The notes under the pieces were generated by a model. It saw only the letters and a list, made by a program, of their open reading frames with translations. It was not told where the DNA came from and ran no database searches. From the NCBI RefSeq assembly GCF_001509585.1, contig NZ_LNCI01000010.1, positions 1 to 64,000 on the forward strand: a stretch of 64,000 bases of DNA. The letters are read 5' to 3'. The translations under genes and the position numbers were made by a program. This document shows, piece after piece, positions 14,808 to 34,875 of this stretch. This DNA comes from Tropicimonas marinistellae (GTDB taxonomy: Bacteria > Pseudomonadota > Alphaproteobacteria > Rhodobacterales > Rhodobacteraceae). The stretch's first letter is position 1; each line of letters opens with the position of its first letter.

Positions 14808-14821
14808 ATGACAATAGTCAA
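14808..14821. promoter_or_regulatory. FNR/DNR-type box between hemA and the Crp/Fnr regulator
   Basis: ATGAC-AATA-GTCAA is an almost perfect inverted repeat (TGAC/GTCA) with the four-base spacer of the Crp/Fnr family. It is centred 62 bp before the hemA start and 140 bp before the regulator start. It resembles the three boxes found at norC, nirS/nirI and nosC, differing in the first base. Binding by the neighbouring regulator or by FnrL is inferred. Confidence 0.6.
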
Positions 14822-14954
14822 GCGATTGCCAGGCACGCGGTTCGCCGCCCGGCGATCTTTCGACTTGCCTTTATTGTCGTTTCGAAGGAGCGTCGCCCCG
14901 GAGTTGGCGGACCCATCGCGTATCTGCATAGGTCGGCACCGGGAGGAGAGAGGA

Positions 14955-15662
14955 ATGTCCGAAGAACCCAATAGGGAAATCGCGCGCAATTCGCTCCTGT
15001 TGAAGAGTTTTCCGAAGTCCTATGTCGATACCCTGCTCGCCAGGTCGACATGGCATAGCTACGACCGTGGCGAAACACTCTTCCTGCACGGTGAGACGGC
15101 CCGATCCATCCACATCGTGATAGACGGATGGATCAAGCTCTACCGGATCGCCGCCAACGGTGGAGAAACCGTGGTGTCAGTCTTCACCAAAGGCGAGAGT
15201 TTCGGCGAGGCCGTCGCGTTCAAGAACAGAAAGTACCCCGTCTCGGCCGAAGCCGTGACCGCGAGCCAGGTCATCCAGATTCCCTCGAACGTCCTGCTCG
15301 ACATGATGCGAAAGGACCTCGACGTCAGCGTTGAGATACTCGCCTCGACCTTCACCCATCTCCATTCGCTGGTCTCTCAGCTGGAGCAGCTTAAGGCACA
15401 GACCGGTGCGCAGCGCGTCGCGGAGTTTCTGCTTGAGTTCTGCGACGAAGAGGCTGGCAGCAGCATGGTGACGCTGCCGTACGACAAGGTCCTGATCGCC
15501 GGACGCCTGGGAATGAAACCCGAAAGCCTGTCGCGCGCCTTCGCCAAGCTGAAACCGTTGGGGGTACGGATTTCCCGCAACCACGCCTCGATCGACGATA
15601 TCGAGAGGCTTCGGGAGTACACCGAGGAAGATCCGGCGACGTCCTGGAACAAGGTGCTCTGA
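14955..15662 (+). CDS. Crp/Fnr-family regulator, DNR/NNR type
   Basis: A 235-residue regulator with an N-terminal cyclic-nucleotide-like sensor domain (residues ~15-120), a dimer helix (~125-155) and a C-terminal helix-turn-helix (~165-215, with KVLIAGRLGMKPESLSRAFAKL as recognition region). The cysteine cluster of oxygen-sensing FNR is missing (only one Cys, in LEFCDEE), so it is more like DNR/NNR, which respond to NO through heme. It sits next to norCBQDEF and divergent from hemA. GGGAGGAGAGAGGA precedes the ATG. Probably the activator of the nir, nor and nos promoters seen in this window; that role is inferred. Confidence 0.85.
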   Translation: MSEEPNREIARNSLLLKSFPKSYVDTLLARSTWHSYDRGETLFLHGETARSIHIVIDGWIKLYRIAANGGETVVSVFTKGESFGEAVAFKNRKYPVSAEAVTASQVIQIPSNVLLDMMRKDLDVSVEILASTFTHLHSLVSQLEQLKAQTGAQRVAEFLLEFCDEEAGSSMVTLPYDKVLIAGRLGMKPESLSRAFAKLKPLGVRISRNHASIDDIERLREYTEEDPATSWNKVL

Positions 15663-21364: not shown

Positions 21365-21378
21365 TTAACGAAAGTCAA
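21365..21378. promoter_or_regulatory. NNR/DNR-type activator box of norCBQDEF
   Basis: TTAAC-GAAA-GTCAA, embedded in the 18-mer CCTTAACGAAAGTCAAGG (21363-21380), which recurs exactly between nirI and nirS. Half-sites AAC/GTC with a four-base spacer fit the Crp/Fnr family. Centre is 70 bp before norC. A weak -10 (CATGGT on the minus strand, near 21336-21341) fits class II activation. Confidence 0.75.
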
Positions 21379-25320: not shown

Positions 25321-27151
<1,831 letters not shown>

Positions 27152-27227: not shown

Positions 27228-28031
27228 ATGTCCAGAACTGGGAAAGTCTGTCTGATTGGCGCCGGTCCCGGCGACCCGGAACTCCTGACCCTGCGCGCAC
27301 TGCGGATGCTGCAGGAGGCTGACGCGGTCGTCTATGACCGACTCGTCTCTCCCGAGATCCTTGCTCTGGCGCCGGACACAGCGCGCAGGCTCTTTGTCGG
27401 AAAAGCGCCAAAGCATCATCCGGTCCCGCAGGACGAGATAAACGCGCTTCTCGCCGAGCTGGCTCTGAACGGCTATTCCGTCGCCCGGTTGAAAGGCGGC
27501 GATCCACTGATTTTCGGGCGCGGCTCCGAAGAGGCCGCGCACCTGACATCGCTCGGCATACCGGTCGAGTACGCCCCGGGTATTACCGCCGCACAGGGCG
27601 CCGCGGCCGCCACTGGCGTACCACTCACGCATCGCGGCCTCGCCAGCGGCGTTCGCTATGTCACCGGCCACAGGCAGGCGGATGGCGTGCTTGACCTCGA
27701 CTGGGCCAGCCTCGCCGATCCTGATACCACACTCGTCGTATACATGGGCGTCGCGAATATCGCGCAGATCGCAATGTGCCTCATGGCCGAGGGTCTGCCC
27801 GGCAGTACGCCCGTCATGGCAATCGCCAATGCAACCACTCCACGAGAGACACGGCTCTTCTCCAGCCTCGAAAGAATCGCGCCCGACACCTGCGCCGCCA
27901 ACCTCAGCGCACCGGTTCTTTTCGTCATTGGCCGCGTCGTCAAGCTCTGCGCCGACTGGCCCGCGGTCGAGTTCCTGTCCTCGGAAGAGACCGAAACCCG
28001 TACCGTTATCGCGCGCGCCGCTCATGCGTAG
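27228..28031 (+). CDS. nirE: Uroporphyrinogen-III C-methyltransferase NirE (heme d1 pathway)
   Basis: A 267-residue SUMT. It methylates uroporphyrinogen III at C2 and C7 to precorrin-2, the entry to siroheme and heme d1. The SAM loop VCLIGAGPGDPELLTLRA (residues 7-24) and VARLKGGDPLIFGRG, YAPGITAAQGAAA and PLTHRG blocks are canonical. No CysG-type dehydrogenase/chelatase domain is fused, so oxidation and iron insertion must come from other proteins (see the chelatase at 34135). nirC starts within its last codons. Confidence 0.95.
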   Translation: MSRTGKVCLIGAGPGDPELLTLRALRMLQEADAVVYDRLVSPEILALAPDTARRLFVGKAPKHHPVPQDEINALLAELALNGYSVARLKGGDPLIFGRGSEEAAHLTSLGIPVEYAPGITAAQGAAAATGVPLTHRGLASGVRYVTGHRQADGVLDLDWASLADPDTTLVVYMGVANIAQIAMCLMAEGLPGSTPVMAIANATTPRETRLFSSLERIAPDTCAANLSAPVLFVIGRVVKLCADWPAVEFLSSEETETRTVIARAAHA

Positions 28032-28326
28032 CGTCGCGGTTTTCCTTGCCAGCGCCACGCTCGCCCATGCCGATGAACCGCCGGATTCGTCCCGGCTGTC
28101 TCATCTCGTCCATCAGGATTGCGGTTCCTGCCACGGTCTGACCCTCAAGGGTGGGCTTGGGCCGGACATCCGCCCCGAAGCGCTTTCGCACTACGACGCC
28201 GAGATCCTCGCAGATGTGGTTCTTGACGGAATTCCCGGCACGGCGATGCCGCCGTGGCGGCCGTCGATGAGCGAAGCGGAAGCACGGTGGATCGCGGAAT
28301 ACCTCCTCACGGGATATGCGCCATGA
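28024..28326 (+). CDS. nirC: NirC, small periplasmic monoheme cytochrome c
   Basis: A 100-residue secreted cytochrome (signal peptide 1-16, LASATLAHA). Heme motif C33-G-S-C-H37 and Met ligand in GTAMPPWRPSM. NirC is a possible electron donor to NirS or partner of NirN/NirF in heme d1 maturation. It overlaps nirE by eight bases and nirF by ATGA. Its small size is normal for the family. Confidence 0.92.
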   Translation: MRSVAVFLASATLAHADEPPDSSRLSHLVHQDCGSCHGLTLKGGLGPDIRPEALSHYDAEILADVVLDGIPGTAMPPWRPSMSEAEARWIAEYLLTGYAP

Positions 28327-29471
28327 AGACATTTCTCTCCCTGCTTCTTCTGACCCTCGGAACAGCAACCAACGCGGAAGAAATCCGTGCCACCGGCGAC
28401 CTAGGCCTCGTGGTCGAACGCGCGCGCGGCAGCCTTCTGGTGATCGATCAGTCGGACCGGGCCGCGATCGGACGAATAGATGGCTTGGGCGATCTTTCCC
28501 ACGCGAGCCTTGTCTATTCGCCAGACGAGCGTTTCGCCTATGTCTTCGGGCGCGACGGCGGCCTCTCAAAGGTCGATATTGTCGAGGGCAAGGTCTCCGC
28601 ACGCGTGCTTCAGGCCGGGAACTCCATTGGCGGGGCAATCTCGGACGACGGCTCCCTTGTCGCGGTCTCGAACTACGAGCCAGGCGGCGTGCGGGTCTTC
28701 AACGCCGACACGCTGGAGATGCTCGCGGACATCCCGACCGCATCGAAAACGATCGGCCTTGTGGATGCCCCTGGCCGCCGTTTCGTTTTCACAACATGGG
28801 ACGACGGGGAAACGTGGATTGCCGATTTCTCCAAGTCCGGCGCACCGGAAATCACGACGATTCCCGAGATGGGAGCAAATCCCTACGACGCGCTGATCAC
28901 CGGAGATGGACGCACGTATATCACCGGCCTCTTCGGCGAAGACGGGCTGACCGCGCTCGATCTCTGGAACGAGGCGCCCCAACCGATCCGCATCCTGCAG
29001 GGCTACGGCCGCGGAAAGGAGGATCTACCCGTCTACAAGATGCCGCACCTGGAGGGATGGGCGAAGGCGGGCGACGAGTTCGTCCTGCCGGCGGTCGGCC
29101 ACCACGAGGTGCTCTGGATTGACGCTGCGACGCTTGCGGAGACAGGGCGCACCGACACCTATGGCCAACCCGTCTTTGCCATGGCTCGGCCCGATGGACG
29201 GCATGTCTGGGTCAACTTCGCCCACCCGCTCAACGACACGATCCAGGTCATCGACACGATGACCAAAGAGGTGATCCACGAGTTCAAGCCCGGGCCGGCC
29301 GTGCTCCACATGGAGTTCACACCGCGCGGGCACGAAGTCTGGATCTCGGTCCGCGATGCCGGAAAGGTGATGATCTACGACACGCAGAGCTTCGAGAAGC
29401 TCCGCGAGATCGAAGCGGACAGTCCGTCCGGCATCTTTTTCACCGCTCGCGCACATCGGACGGGACTTTGA
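28323..29471 (+). CDS. nirF: NirF, heme d1 biosynthesis protein
   Basis: A 382-residue exported protein (signal peptide 1-~18, LLLLTLGTATNA) forming a beta-propeller like the d1 domain of NirS but without a cytochrome c domain. NirF binds dihydro-heme d1 and is essential for heme d1 production; recent work assigns NirN the final dehydrogenation and leaves NirF in an earlier periplasmic step. Propeller repeats such as SPDERFAYVFGRDGGLSKVD are visible. ATG 28323 overlaps the nirC stop (ATGA). Confidence 0.94.
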   Translation: MKTFLSLLLLTLGTATNAEEIRATGDLGLVVERARGSLLVIDQSDRAAIGRIDGLGDLSHASLVYSPDERFAYVFGRDGGLSKVDIVEGKVSARVLQAGNSIGGAISDDGSLVAVSNYEPGGVRVFNADTLEMLADIPTASKTIGLVDAPGRRFVFTTWDDGETWIADFSKSGAPEITTIPEMGANPYDALITGDGRTYITGLFGEDGLTALDLWNEAPQPIRILQGYGRGKEDLPVYKMPHLEGWAKAGDEFVLPAVGHHEVLWIDAATLAETGRTDTYGQPVFAMARPDGRHVWVNFAHPLNDTIQVIDTMTKEVIHEFKPGPAVLHMEFTPRGHEVWISVRDAGKVMIYDTQSFEKLREIEADSPSGIFFTARAHRTGL

Positions 29472-29474
29472 GCC

Positions 29475-30473
29475 ATGGGCGTCGAACGCATCGCCGACGC
29501 ACGGGACATCCGCCTTCTCGACGAATGGCAGCGCGACTTCCCATTGGAATCCCGGCCGTTCATCCGCATTGGCGCCGCGCTCGGTTGCAGCGAGGCCGAA
29601 GTTCTCAGACGCCTCGCAACGCATGTTGCAGACGGCCGGGTTTCCCGCGTTGGCGCAACATGCGCGCCCAACACGATCTCGGCCAGCACATTGGCAGCCG
29701 TCGCGGCCCCGGACTCCCGGATAGATGTCATCGCGGCCATCATCGGGGTTCAGCCGGGCGTCAACCATGTCTACCAGCGCGAGAACCGCTGGAACCTCTG
29801 GTTCGTGGCCACGGGCCCCGACCGTGCCCATGTCAATGCCTCGCTCGCGGCTATCGCGCGCGCCACCGGTTTGCGCGTGCTCAATGCGCCGCTAGTGCGA
29901 CCCTTTAACGTGGACCTCGGATTCCGATTGGATGGCAGCGGCACACCGCTGCCTCCGAAAAGGGCCGTCGATGCGACAGCCATCGAACCCGGGGACAGGG
30001 AAATCCTCCAGGCACTAACCGCCGGCATGCCGATCGTTGCGCGCCCCTACCGTCAGATCGGTGCCCTGCTCGCAAGAAGCGAAAGGGAGGTGATCGCACG
30101 CGTCGCGGCGCTCACCCACGCCGGGATCATCTCGCGGCTCGGCGTGATCGTCCGGCACCGGGCTCTTGGCTGGAGTTCGAACGCGATGGTCGTTTGGGAC
30201 ATACCTGAAGAGCGCATCGAGTCTGCCGGCCCTGCGCTCGCCGCCTTTCCTGGCGTTACGCTTTGCTACGAGCGCCGTCCCGAGCCCGTCCTTTGGCCGT
30301 ACCGGCTCTATTGCATGATCCACGCCAAGTCGCGCAGCCGTGCGATGGACGTTCTCGCCGGTGCGGCCGAATTGCCGGACTTGCGCGACGCTCCTCGGCG
30401 CGTCCTCTTTTCCAGCCGCTGTTTCAAACAAACCGGCGCAATGATTGCTCCGGCACCGGAGACTGTCACATGA
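29475..30473 (+). CDS. nirDL: NirD-NirL fusion, siroheme decarboxylase subunits
   Basis: A 332-residue protein made of two Lrp/AsnC-like siroheme decarboxylase units: residues ~8-155 (NirD-like, ending PFNVDLGFRLDG) and ~170-320 (NirL-like, with CYERRPEPVLWPYRLYCMIHAKSRS cut here to its core). Each unit keeps a winged helix start (LDEWQRDFPLESRPF; REILQALTAGMPIVARPY) but serves catalysis, not DNA binding. With NirG and NirH it decarboxylates siroheme to 12,18-didecarboxysiroheme. Three bases after nirF; ATGA overlap with nirG. Confidence 0.93.
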   Translation: MGVERIADARDIRLLDEWQRDFPLESRPFIRIGAALGCSEAEVLRRLATHVADGRVSRVGATCAPNTISASTLAAVAAPDSRIDVIAAIIGVQPGVNHVYQRENRWNLWFVATGPDRAHVNASLAAIARATGLRVLNAPLVRPFNVDLGFRLDGSGTPLPPKRAVDATAIEPGDREILQALTAGMPIVARPYRQIGALLARSEREVIARVAALTHAGIISRLGVIVRHRALGWSSNAMVVWDIPEERIESAGPALAAFPGVTLCYERRPEPVLWPYRLYCMIHAKSRSRAMDVLAGAAELPDLRDAPRRVLFSSRCFKQTGAMIAPAPETVT

Positions 30474-30925
30474 CGCATCAACTCGATGATACCGACCGGG
30501 CGTTGATCAACCGGCTGCAAGACGACCTTCCGCTTACCGACCGCCCCTTCGCAGCCATCGGAGAGGCATTGGATCTGCCGGAATCAGAGGTGCTTTCGCG
30601 TCTCACCCGGTTGCGGGAGGACGGCTTCATCACGCGGTTCGGCCCGTTCTTCGATGCCGCTGCACTCGGAGGGGCCTTTTGCCTCTGCGCGATGTCGGTA
30701 CCGGAAGCGGATTTCGAGACGGTCGTGACCAAAGTCAATGCCCACCCCGAAGTCGCGCACAATTATGAACGCGAGCATGCGTTCAACATGTGGTTTGTGC
30801 TCGCGACAGAAAACGCGGAGGAGATCGAGACCGTGGCCCGTGAGATCGAGGCAGAGACCGGAATCGCGGTACGCCGTTTTCCGAAAGAGCGGGAGTTCTA
30901 CATCGGTTTCCGGGTGGCGGCATGA
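30470..30925 (+). CDS. nirG: NirG, siroheme decarboxylase subunit
   Basis: A 151-residue single-unit AsnC-like protein: winged helix (residues ~5-55, TDRALINRLQDDLPLTDRPF) and RAM-like domain with the HNYEREHAFNMWFVLATE block. It is part of the NirDL-G-H decarboxylase set; NirG versus NirL naming follows gene order. Overlaps nirDL and nirH by ATGA on both sides, so all subunits are probably made in fixed ratio. Confidence 0.9.
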   Translation: MTHQLDDTDRALINRLQDDLPLTDRPFAAIGEALDLPESEVLSRLTRLREDGFITRFGPFFDAAALGGAFCLCAMSVPEADFETVVTKVNAHPEVAHNYEREHAFNMWFVLATENAEEIETVAREIEAETGIAVRRFPKEREFYIGFRVAA

Positions 30926-31410
30926 CGCTGGACGCCATCGACCGCCGGATTGTCGAGGCCACGCAGGCAGGCTTGCCGCTGTGTGCCACACCCTTCGCTG
31001 AGATTGGCGACAGTCTCGGACTGGAGGGGGCAGACGTGATCGCGCGCCTCGTCAAACTCAAGGAGCGCGGCGTGATCCGCCGGATTGGCGCGGCACCGAA
31101 CCACTATCGCCTGGGGATGCTCGCGAACGGAATGAGCGTCTGGGATGTAGACGACGCTCAGGTGGACGCACTGGGCGCTCAGGTGGGCGCACTCACGTTT
31201 GTAACCCATTGCTACCGCCGCCCGCGCGCGCTTCCGGACTGGCCATACAATCTTTTCGCGATGGTTCACGGAAGCGACCGTGAAGAGGTACAGGAAAAAC
31301 GCGCACAGATAGCAGTGCTATTGGGCCCTGCTTGCCGTGGCAGCGATATCCTTTTTTCCTCGCGGATCCTCAAGAAGACCGGCTTGCGACTGCGCCGGAA
31401 GGAGGGCTGA
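30922..31410 (+). CDS. nirH: NirH, siroheme decarboxylase subunit
   Basis: A 162-residue AsnC-like protein with the winged helix start [22 protein letters not shown] and a later [24 protein letters not shown] block that resembles the second half of NirDL, including a histidine and arginines near the predicted siroheme pocket. Fourth unit of the decarboxylase set. nirJ begins two bases after its stop. Confidence 0.92.
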
Positions 31411-31411
31411 G

Positions 31412-32623
31412 ATGTTTCGACTGTCGGGATACATGGAACAGCTTGTCAGGCCGACACCGGTGCGGCGCCGTGGCGCCGGACCGGTCCGGCCGGTGGTGAT
31501 ATGGAACCTGACCCGGCGTTGCAATCTGCGGTGCCGGCATTGCTACACGGTATCTGCCGATGTCGATTTCCCTGGCGAGCTGAGCCACGAGCAGGCCTTG
31601 GCCACGCTCGACGACCTTGGCACATTCGGCATTCCGGCACTGATCCTCTCGGGAGGCGAGCCGCTTGACCGAAAGGATTTCTTTCAGATTGCAGAAGCGG
31701 CACGACCAAGGGTCCGGATGCTGGCGCTCTCGACCAACGGGACCAAGGTCGACGGCGAAAACGCTGACCGTGTCGCCGGGATCGGTTTTGATTACGTCGG
31801 GATATCCATTGATGGCATCGGTGCCACGAACGACTGGTTCCGCGGGGTGGATGGCGCTTTCGACGCGGCCCTTCGCGGTGTGCGCGCATGCAAGGCACGC
31901 GACATCAAGGTCGGGCTACGTTTCACGCTTACCGAGGGCAACCATCGTCACTTGCCCGACCTCCTGAAGCTCTGCGACGACGAAGGGGTCGACAAGTTCT
32001 ACCTGTCCCACCTCGTCTACGCCGGACGCGGCGACAAGAACCGCGGCGAGGATGCCGCGCACCGGCGCACGCGCGCGGCGATGGACCTGCTCATCGACCG
32101 GGCCTGGATAGCCGCCGCCGAAAATGCACCGCTCGACATCGTAACCGGCAACAACGACGCAGATGCCGTCTATTTCCTGAAATGGGCGGAGCGGCATTTC
32201 GACGAAGCGCGTGTAGCCCATCTTCGTAGTCATCTCGAGGCCTGGGGCGGCAATTCCTCGGGGCTCGGCGTGGCCAATATCGACACGCTGGGCCGGGTGC
32301 ATCCTGACACCTACTGGTCCGACTACACGATCGGAAACGTGAAGACGGCGCGTTTCTCCGACCTCTGGACCGGCGGGGACCCGATGCTCTCGCAGCTGCG
32401 CACCCGCCCGCGGCCACTCAAGGGCCGCTGCGGTGCCTGCGCATTCCGGGATGTCTGCGGCGGCAATACCCGTATCCGGGCATTGCAACTCACCGGCGAC
32501 CCGTGGGCCGAAGACCCGGCCTGCTACCTGTCCGACGCGGAGATCGGCGTGCGTGCCGGCCCGCGCCTTACCCTCACACCGTTCCGAGGCAAGAGCCGTG
32601 ATCCAGAGCACAAGTTCCTCTAG
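31412..32623 (+). CDS. nirJ: NirJ, radical SAM enzyme of heme d1 synthesis
   Basis: A 403-residue radical SAM protein that removes the propionates at C3 and C8 of didecarboxysiroheme, leaving the keto precursor. Cluster motif C-NLR-C-RH-C (in [13 protein letters not shown], ~residue 40), a SAM motif LSGGEPLDR, and a C-terminal SPASM-like cluster ([13 protein letters not shown] then a later C in DPACYL) are visible. GGAGG precedes ATG 31412. nirN starts inside its last 26 bases. Confidence 0.95.
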
Positions 32624-34178
32624 CGTCCGGTCGACGCGCGCCCTTCTGGCAGCGGTCGCAATGGCCGCGATTTCCTCAGCCGTCCATGCCGATCCCGTCA
32701 GGGACTACCAGGACTATTGCGCGGAGTGCCACGGTCTCGGGCGGCTTGGAGCCCTTGGGCCGGCACTCATACCGGAAACGCTCGGGCGGATGCGCGGACC
32801 GAATCTCGCGGCGGTGATCGAGACCGGGCGGGACGCCACACAGATGCCGGCCTTCGGGGAGGAACTTGGCGCGGAAAGAATCGCGGAACTCGCGGCTTTC
32901 CTGAAAACACCGCTCGACGAAATCCCGCCCTGGGGCGCAGATGAAATCGCCGCCAGCCGAGAAACGAACGCCGACTACGCACCCGCCGCTTTTCCGGTCT
33001 GGCCGTCGGACCCGATGAATATCACTCTGGCCGTGGAGACCGGCGATCACCACGTCAGCGTGCTGGACGGGGACACATTCGACGTGTTGGACCGGTTCGA
33101 AACCCCCTTCGCCGTGCATGGCGGCCCGAAGTTCAGCCCTGACGGGCGGTTCGTCTTCATCATGTCGCGCGACGGCTGGATCCAGAAATACGATCTGTGG
33201 TCGCTTGCCGAAGTCGGCCGCGTGCGAGCCGGGTTGAACAGCCGCAATATCGCAATGAGCCATGACGGCAAGTGGCTGGCGGTGGCGAATTACCTTCCCA
33301 TGACGCTTACGATCCTGGCCACCGATGATCTCTCAGTTGCGAGGGTGATGGACGTGACATCGCGCGACGGAACGCCAAGCCGTGTCTCGGCCGTCTATCA
33401 GGCGCCGCAGCGAAAGAGCTTCATCCTGGCGTTGAAGGACGCTGCCGAAATCTGGGAGATCGCCACGGATCCGGAGGCCGAACCGGTCTACGAGGGGTTC
33501 GTTCACAGCCGCGAGAAAGGCATGGTGGAAGCGCTGGCCTCCTCCGAAGGCCTCTTCGCGCGGCGGAGGATCGTCGTTGGCGAGCCGCTCGACGACTTCT
33601 TCTTCGATGACGCGTATCGCAACCTGGTCGGAGCTGCGCGCGACGGTTCGCGGGCAGTGGTGGTGAACCTGAATGTCGGACGCGAGATCGCCGAGTTGCC
33701 GCTCGACGGCATGCCGCATCTCGGCTCCGGAATAAGTTGGACACGCGACGGACGGCGCGTCATGGCGACCCCACATCTGAAGGAAGGCAAGCTCTCGGTG
33801 ATTGATACGGAAACCTGGGAGCGCATTGCGGTGATCGAGACCGAGGGACCGGGCTTCTTCCTGCGGAGCCACGAGAACACCCCCTATTTCTGGGCCGATG
33901 TTTTCTTCGGCCCCAACAAGGACGCCATGCACGTCATCGACAAGCAAAGCCTCGAAATCGTCAGGACGCTGCGCCCGGTGCCGGGTGCGACCGTCGCCCA
34001 TGTGGAATTCACCCGCGACGGGTCGCGGGCACTGGTGTCGGTCTGGGAGGAGGACGGTGCGGTCATCGTCTATGACGCGGCAACCCTCGAAGAACTGCAA
34101 CGCCTGCCAATGCGCAAACCCTCGGGAAAATACAATGTCTGGAACAAGATCACCTTCTCCGAAGGCACCAGCCACTGA
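32598..34178 (+). CDS. nirN: NirN, d1-type cytochrome, dihydro-heme d1 dehydrogenase
   Basis: A 526-residue NirS homolog with a signal peptide (residues 1-~31, [21 protein letters not shown]), a cytochrome c domain with C41-A-E-C-H45, and a d1-type beta-propeller. NirN introduces the last double bond into dihydro-heme d1 before transfer to NirS. A GTG at 32598, inside nirJ, is the only start that keeps the signal peptide. Its 3' end overlaps the chelatase gene by 44 bases. Confidence 0.92.
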
Positions 34179-34875
34179 AGCGCTCATTGTCGCCCACGGC
34201 CAGCCATCCGATCCGGCACCTGCCGAGGAAGCGCTACGAAAGGTTGCGGGCCATGTTGCAAGGCTGCTGCCGCAGTGGCGCATCCGGTCCGCGACGATGG
34301 CGGCCGCCGGAAGGCTCGAGCGTGAACTGGCTCGGGCTTCGAGACCGCTCGTCTATCCGCTTTTCATGTCGGACGGTTGGTTTACCAGAACCGCCCTGCC
34401 GGCGCGGCTGGGCGCTGCCGAGGTCCGCATACTCGCACCTCTCGGGCTCGACCCGGCCCTCCCGGCCGTCGCATCGCGGACACTTCACCGCCTGGCCGGC
34501 GAAATGGGCTGGGAAATCGGCCGCACAGAAATCCTCGTTGCCGCGCACGGATCCGGTGCCGGCAGGGAGAACCCGGCGCGTTGCACGTATCGCTTCGCGC
34601 ACGCGCTGTCGCTCCTTTCCGAATGGCACCGGGTGAGAATTGGCCTCCTCGAACAGGAACCGCGCCTGTCGACCGTTGCAGGCCATTGCGCCGGGCAAAC
34701 GATCTGCCTTCCGTTTTTTGCCGCCGGGGGAGAACACGTCGTTCGCGACGTCCCCGAGGAGCTCGACGCAGGCCGCTTTGGCGGCATGTTGTGTGACTCA
34801 CTTGGTGGCGCCGACGACATCCCGGCGTTGATCGCGGGCGCGCTACAGGCGGCGTCTCTGGAGATTGCGGCATGA
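34135..34875 (+). CDS. CbiX/SirB-like class II chelatase in the nir operon
   Basis: A 246-residue protein with two chelatase-like halves. The N half opens [11 protein letters not shown] (H21) and has PLFMSDGWFTR, where the second metal histidine is replaced (W82). The C half opens TEILVAAHGSG (H138), carries E173/E175, and has LPFFAAGGEHVVRDVPEEL with H201. The H-E-H spacing resembles Bacillus SirB. It is probably a sirohydrochlorin ferrochelatase that makes siroheme for NirDLGH, because nirE here lacks a chelatase domain; cobalt chelation is the alternative. ATG 34135 overlaps nirN by 44 bases; the next gene is coupled by ATGA. Not part of the classic nirSECFDLGHJN set. Confidence 0.75.
   Translation: MSGTRSPSPKAPATEALIVAHGQPSDPAPAEEALRKVAGHVARLLPQWRIRSATMAAAGRLERELARASRPLVYPLFMSDGWFTRTALPARLGAAEVRILAPLGLDPALPAVASRTLHRLAGEMGWEIGRTEILVAAHGSGAGRENPARCTYRFAHALSLLSEWHRVRIGLLEQEPRLSTVAGHCAGQTICLPFFAAGGEHVVRDVPEELDAGRFGGMLCDSLGGADDIPALIAGALQAASLEIAA

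Follow-up and report, generated by a model that had tools for sequence, protein, structure and literature searches.

Putative nir-coupled sirohydrochlorin ferrochelatase of the Paracoccus CbiX type in the heme d1 operon of Tropicimonas marinistellae

Gene content of the nir operon

The window, that is the whole stretch of 64,000 nucleotides analysed here, holds a denitrification cluster in which a CRP-type regulator (14808-15662), nor-type genes and NnrS lie ahead of nirS. Starting from nirS, the gene order is nirE, a nirC-like cytochrome gene, nirF, nirDL, two siroheme decarboxylase-type genes, nirJ, nirN, cbiX and a gene for a small protein of 78 amino acids (Table 1). Past this last gene a convergent ApbE-type (nosX-like) gene follows and, further along, a nosZ-like gene. 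Several of the gene names in the cluster are our assumption from domain matches and gene order; the ORFs that we take to be nirF, nirG and nirH were named in this way from gene order. In the case of nirE, neither Pfam nor NCBIfam gave a match to the CysG N-terminal domain, which confirms an earlier interpretation made from the letters alone (the sequence-only reading) that nirE lacks a CysG-type chelatase domain.

The ORF of cbiX has 246 codons and its translation is free of internal stops. As nirN ends at 34178 in another frame, 44 nt are shared by the two genes, and at the other end cbiX closes on ATGA, in which its TGA and the ATG of the downstream gene (34872) overlap. Both overlaps were found just as the sequence-only reading had described them. 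In 28 of the 42 loci holding nirN and cbiX, the window's own counted, the two genes share precisely 44 nt, and the start of cbiX at 34135 is therefore well supported. The same overlap is present on contigs of Pelagibius, Aurantimonas and Maritimibacter, and also at five loci whose CbiX is no more than 27-31% identical.

Ahead of nirS lies an NNR/FNR-like box, and an identical 14-base box, TTAACGAAAGTCAA, was observed at 21365-21378, immediately before a NorC-like cytochrome gene. Judged by their letters, the two boxes are perhaps NNR sites. It is important to add that the window contains 17 matches to NNR-type boxes compared to 13.4 expected, and 17 was reached by 19 out of 100 shuffles. The box count is thus not above chance, and for this reason the box is taken as suggestive.

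Table 1. Positions of the features of the nir operon within the window
Feature	Position	Strand	Remarks
NNR/FNR-like box TTAACGAAAGTCAA	25321..25334	.	before nirS; one mismatch to pattern
nirS	25367..27151	+	Cytochrom_D1; true start perhaps further in
nirE	27228..28031	+	uroporphyrinogen-III methyltransferase alone
nirF (ORF limits)	28254..29471	+	Cytochrom_D1; name presumed from gene order
nirDL fusion, siroheme decarboxylase	29475..30473	+	Pfam/NCBIfam matches
nirG, siroheme decarboxylase subunit	30470..30925	+	name presumed from gene order
nirH, siroheme decarboxylase subunit	30922..31410	+	Pfam/NCBIfam matches; name presumed from gene order
nirJ (ORF limits)	31337..32623	+	TIGR04051, 604 bits vs 515
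nirN	32598..34178	+	Cytochrom_D1; GTG start inferred
nirN/cbiX overlap, 44 nt	34135..34178	+	cbiX ATG out of frame within NirN Asn-Val codons (AAT GTC)
cbiX	34135..34875	+	Paracoccus-type CbiX, predicted class II sirohydrochlorin ferrochelatase, 246 aa
Small protein gene, conserved, 78 aa	34872..35108	+	ATGA overlap with cbiX; hydrophobic stretches

Family, fold and active-site residues of CbiX

The closest solved relative of the protein is PDB 4ccs, the CbiX of Paracoccus pantotrophus (Pp-CbiX), which matched residues 16-240 with an E-value of 7.9e-45. The Pfam CbiX match reached 35.2 bits (cut-off 22), with its best stretch in the C half. An AlphaFold2 model was predicted from 11 sequences (mean pLDDT 90.4) and compared by Foldseek. 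Again 4ccs came first (E 7.1e-18, 42% identity across 231 columns), followed by DR2241 and SirB, with CbiK and HemH-type ferrochelatases among the further matches, and the predicted model shows the two-half fold of class II chelatases. By all three scores the homology to class II chelatases, which the sequence-only reading had supposed for the C half, is far above chance.

To describe conservation at the residue level, an alignment of 62 rows was used, consisting of 58 rows from the family sample (including the window's own), three from the class search and Pp-CbiX. Split or partial CbiX matches of three genomes (G135, G155, G166) were excluded from the residue counts and from the tree, and were scored as positive in the family co-occurrence table. 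The counterparts of Pp-CbiX H10, H127 and H187 in the alignment are H21, H138 and H201, and each of these is a histidine in 62/62 rows. Bali et al. 2014 (PMC4063343) report that the H127A and H187A variants of Pp-CbiX are inactive and that H10A is active. The sequence-only reading had placed a chelatase triad in the C half, made up of H138, E173 or E175, and H201. Both histidines stand, and E173 is the conserved acidic candidate, as its column is acidic in every row (48 E and 14 D), while that of E175 holds E in 8 of the 62. It had also read W82 as the loss of a second histidine in the N half. The tryptophan is indeed present, but its column is W in 60/62 rows, Pp-CbiX among them, and there is no local loss. 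When distant families were added, H138, G139, H201 and D205 were invariant in 27/27 rows and H21 of the N half was variable.

Other class assignments were considered and set aside. No ferrochelatase family was among the Pfam/NCBIfam matches at E <= 1, and the likeness to HemH is limited to the fold. The Pfam CbiK score of 10.4 bits lies under the cut-off of 26.2. SirB of Bacillus (5zt7 and others) has the two-half class II fold in common with CbiX and catalyses the same reaction, but the identity in the Foldseek alignment is 14-15%. According to the part of PMC4063343 available, the active site of SirB lies in its N half. The corresponding histidine pair of SirB and long CbiX proteins is absent here, with H21 kept and W82 at the place where the sequence-only reading expected the second histidine. 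Lastly, CysG and Met8p make the same product, siroheme; however, they belong to another fold and domain family and carry out precorrin-2 oxidation as well. The NAD-binding siroheme synthase domain of the CysG N terminus gave no match in the protein at E <= 1 (Pfam, NCBIfam), and a CysG assignment was discarded.

Altogether, by full-length homology, predicted fold and both essential histidines, the protein is a Paracoccus-type CbiX. This enzyme is described in PMC4063343 as the sirohydrochlorin ferrochelatase of alphaproteobacteria, with a crystal structure. In the same source, Pp-CbiX rescues cysG-deficient E. coli, where added cobalt was without effect, and a cbiX deletion in P. denitrificans abolishes growth by nitrate respiration and leads to accumulation of nitrite. 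Iron chelatase function, the two essential histidines and the need in denitrification were thus established by others in a relative of about 42% identity, and would extend to the window protein by analogy. The earlier proposal of a sirohydrochlorin ferrochelatase with a C-half active site that feeds heme d1 is well supported by this homology. Its description of the step as overlooked does not hold, because PMC4063343 already reports both the enzyme and the loss of denitrification on deletion. The iron-inserting step itself is known, and the window gene is a further member of a known enzyme family. The CbiX sequence does not reveal which metal is used, and according to the available part of PMC4063343 the apo structure leaves metal choice unexplained as well.

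Siroheme supply in the host and distribution of CbiX and CysG

With a probability of about 0.78, sequence, model and analogy taken together point to a class II sirohydrochlorin ferrochelatase that is coupled to the nir operon and would work for heme d1, the general siroheme supply of the host probably being left to CysG. In this mechanism, CbiX would insert Fe2+ into sirohydrochlorin, and the siroheme formed would be the substrate for the NirDL/G/H decarboxylases of the same operon. Metal and ring would be bound in the cleft between the two pseudo-symmetric halves by the C-half residues H138 and H201, close to which E173 lies, and the N half would help in holding the substrate. As the start codon of cbiX is embedded, out of frame, in the final 44 nt of nirN, expression of the gene is expected to go along with that of the nir operon, by co-transcription and coupled translation, for the purpose of heme d1 synthesis. 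Pp-CbiX shares with the window protein the full-length homology, the fold, the two essential C-half histidines and the link to heme d1. In contrast, the Paracoccus gene is found at a distance from the nir operon and supplies siroheme for every use, as far as PMC4063343 describes it, whereas the window gene is inside the operon of a host that has CysG.

The sequence-only reading had argued that siroheme must come from elsewhere than NirE. This is incomplete, as the host has, besides CbiX, a full-length CysG and a shorter CysG-like protein. The full-length CysG (NF007922, 514 bits vs 400) is encoded within 1 kb of a NIR_SIR (siroheme-reductase) gene and retains the Asp that corresponds to D104 of Salmonella CysG, whose role is treated in PMC7018833, as far as that source was available. 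The CysG-like protein (L009, contig C37, about 372 kb) has an intact N-terminal part and a methyltransferase part matched over its first half only; it is found about 4-5 kb from another NIR_SIR match. Searching the host with the CbiX protein gave one other place only, a weak fragment (E 0.019). The CbiX profile added some weak places under the cut-off and a two-domain CbiX/SirB relative (L003, contig C23, about 432 kb), which has a long His-rich tail and SirB as its best solved match. The ORF behind it presumably encodes a CobH.

As assimilatory siroheme has its own likely supply, a role of the window CbiX restricted to nir is plausible. With CysG and the shorter CysG-like protein in the genome, the case for a dedicated enzyme is stronger than in Paracoccus and that for a required one weaker; CbiX is possibly dispensable for heme d1.

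To place the gene in a wider context, a family sample of 198 genomes, about one per genus, was surveyed. CbiX of the window type was found in 61 genomes, the cytochrome D1 domain in 38 and the CysG N-terminal domain in 137. In the case of the D1-bearing genomes, 31/38 have CbiX. In 19 of these the gene directly adjoins nirN and in 12 it does not; as 10 of the 12 unlinked copies are on contigs other than nir, a few links are perhaps hidden by assembly breaks. The seven D1-bearing genomes without CbiX all have CysG, and none of the 38 is without both. In the 160 genomes without D1, CysG was present in 4/30 with CbiX compared to 112/130 without (p 2.7e-14, relatedness ignored), so that the two tend to replace each other there.

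The class sample consisted of 385 genomes, 29 of them with a D1 match, from which two with single weak D1 matches (G387, G482) were dropped. In 13 of the remaining 27, spread over nine families by the codes of the tool, CbiX (profile A3) lies directly after nirN. The survey of other nir clusters that the sequence-only reading had suggested thus shows the arrangement in 19/38 and 13/27 of the D1-bearing genomes of family and class, respectively. In one further class genome (G240), CbiX lies between two D1 matches of the nir cluster. In two others (G284, G565), CbiX-like matches share the contig of nirS and lie about 1-2 kb upstream of it; the nir cluster has perhaps recruited other chelatases there. 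Among alphaproteobacteria, many heme d1 clusters carry their own ferrochelatase, which is missing from the usual nirSECFDLGHJN list; in its available part, a 2020 review (PMC7242693) names nirD, L, G, H, F, J and N for heme d1.

A rule by which linkage goes with CysG looked strong in raw family counts, CysG being present in 13/19 genomes with nir-linked CbiX and in 1/12 with unlinked CbiX (Fisher p 0.0023, relatedness ignored). On the 62-row tree, however, no more than three independent pairs rest on supported branches, too few for the sign test to give a significant result. In the class sample, where CysG was tested on the 27 D1-bearing genomes with TIGR01470 at E <= 1e-6, it was present in 6/13 nir-linked and 7/14 other genomes. 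The rule is kept as a lead, and a general division of labour is disfavoured since the class sample shows no association between linkage and CysG. Nor is a single transferred clade of nir-linked CbiX supported, as the tree requires 13 changes of linkage state (11 with family rows only), at least four of them forced by well supported branches.

These data bear on three other explanations. Firstly, CysG might also feed heme d1, with the operon CbiX doing no more than increase the flux while the cell denitrifies. The full length of the host CysG with its D104-equivalent Asp argues for this, as do the 7/38 D1-bearing family genomes that have CysG and lack CbiX of the window type; but the exact slot and embedded start kept across families suggest a useful gene, and we regard such a booster as unlikely. 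Secondly, the nir-linked CbiX could make assimilatory siroheme too, like the unlinked cbiX in Paracoccus. The CysG N-terminal domain is indeed missing from 6/19 linked family and 7/13 linked class genomes, but in the host both CysG and the CysG-like protein are encoded close to NIR_SIR genes at the distances given above, which makes a dual role highly improbable here. The least probable explanation, a cobaltochelatase for cobalamin, has on its side the Pfam name and the cobalt CbiK among the fold matches, and against it the position in a heme d1 operon, the other two-domain CbiX/SirB relative of the host with its His-rich tail, and the action of Pp-CbiX as an iron enzyme in vivo (PMC4063343).

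The slot at the end of nirN and the small protein gene

In PMC4063343, cbiX is placed after nirN in Roseobacter denitrificans (43-bp overlap), Polymorphum gilvum and Dinoroseobacter shibae, and from what that source gives these do not differ essentially from the window. A literature search, in whose coverage subscription papers were mostly not included, returned no further paper centred on cbiX together with nirN. What is left as new is the setting for testing an exclusive use in heme d1 synthesis, the embedded start codon and the unnamed small gene.

The exact 44-nt overlap is weakened as proof of common descent, because its length follows from the C terminus of NirN, which is strongly conserved. 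For the out-of-frame ATG to exist, the Asn codon ahead of the NirN Val must be AAT. This was the case in 32/44 loci where cbiX follows, in 11/11 where the small gene follows and in 0/4 where neither does. Among the remaining Asn codons of these NirN stretches, 122/613 (20%) are AAT, and the Asn three codons after the one ahead of the Val is AAC in 54/55. The binomial p of 2e-20 for this enrichment is overstated, since the rows are related. Owing to stops in the named stretch, one locus was omitted from alignment A2 (L110) and one from a family search (L102). At 10 of the 11 loci the small protein reads straight from the embedded ATG; at the remaining one the frame stops after five codons.

The small protein matched no Pfam or NCBIfam family and, from its hydrophobic stretches, is probably membrane-bound. 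Its profile was detected in 54/198 family genomes, namely in 33/38 with cytochrome D1 compared to 21/160 without (Fisher p 3e-18, relatedness ignored). Measured from the nirN match, the small gene lies 723-796 nt away in 17/19 genomes where cbiX adjoins nirN, and 28-73 nt away in 11/15 D1-bearing genomes where it does not; four D1-bearing genomes without a full NirN place (G019, G040, G069, G189) are left out of this count. These distances indicate that cbiX has either entered or left at a single, exactly defined position. As the small gene lies directly after nirN in those 11 of 15 genomes, it is not tied to CbiX, and its role as a partner of CbiX was rejected. Where cbiX is absent, this gene for an unnamed, probably membrane-bound small protein usually takes its slot and its start. 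With its gene in the same slot as cbiX, the conserved small protein is a new candidate for a part in denitrification.

Taken together, the end of nirN could be a conserved docking slot, in which AAT-G is kept for the ATG and either cbiX or the small gene starts, combined with a CbiX isozyme that serves denitrification only in hosts with CysG. We put this combined proposal forward tentatively, at somewhat less than even odds. If the isozyme part is true, iron insertion for heme d1 would be separate from that for assimilatory siroheme. It would then also answer a question that PMC4063343, in its available part, leaves open, namely where assimilatory siroheme comes from, under aerobic conditions too, when cbiX is nir-linked and under NNR control. 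As genomes with both CysG and nir-linked CbiX exist, the host included, the way in which a nir-linked cbiX goes together with assimilatory siroheme is now directly testable.

The arrangement was also seen in plasmid records, of which 11 matched, ten from Roseibium/Labrenzia and one from Aliiroseovarius. In Roseibium aggregatum (NZ_CP128604) the genes run from nirS to nirN, cbiX and the small gene, followed by nos genes. In Aliiroseovarius (NZ_CP081154) cbiX stands after nirN with no overlap annotated, and the relative of the small gene is found elsewhere, near nor-type genes.
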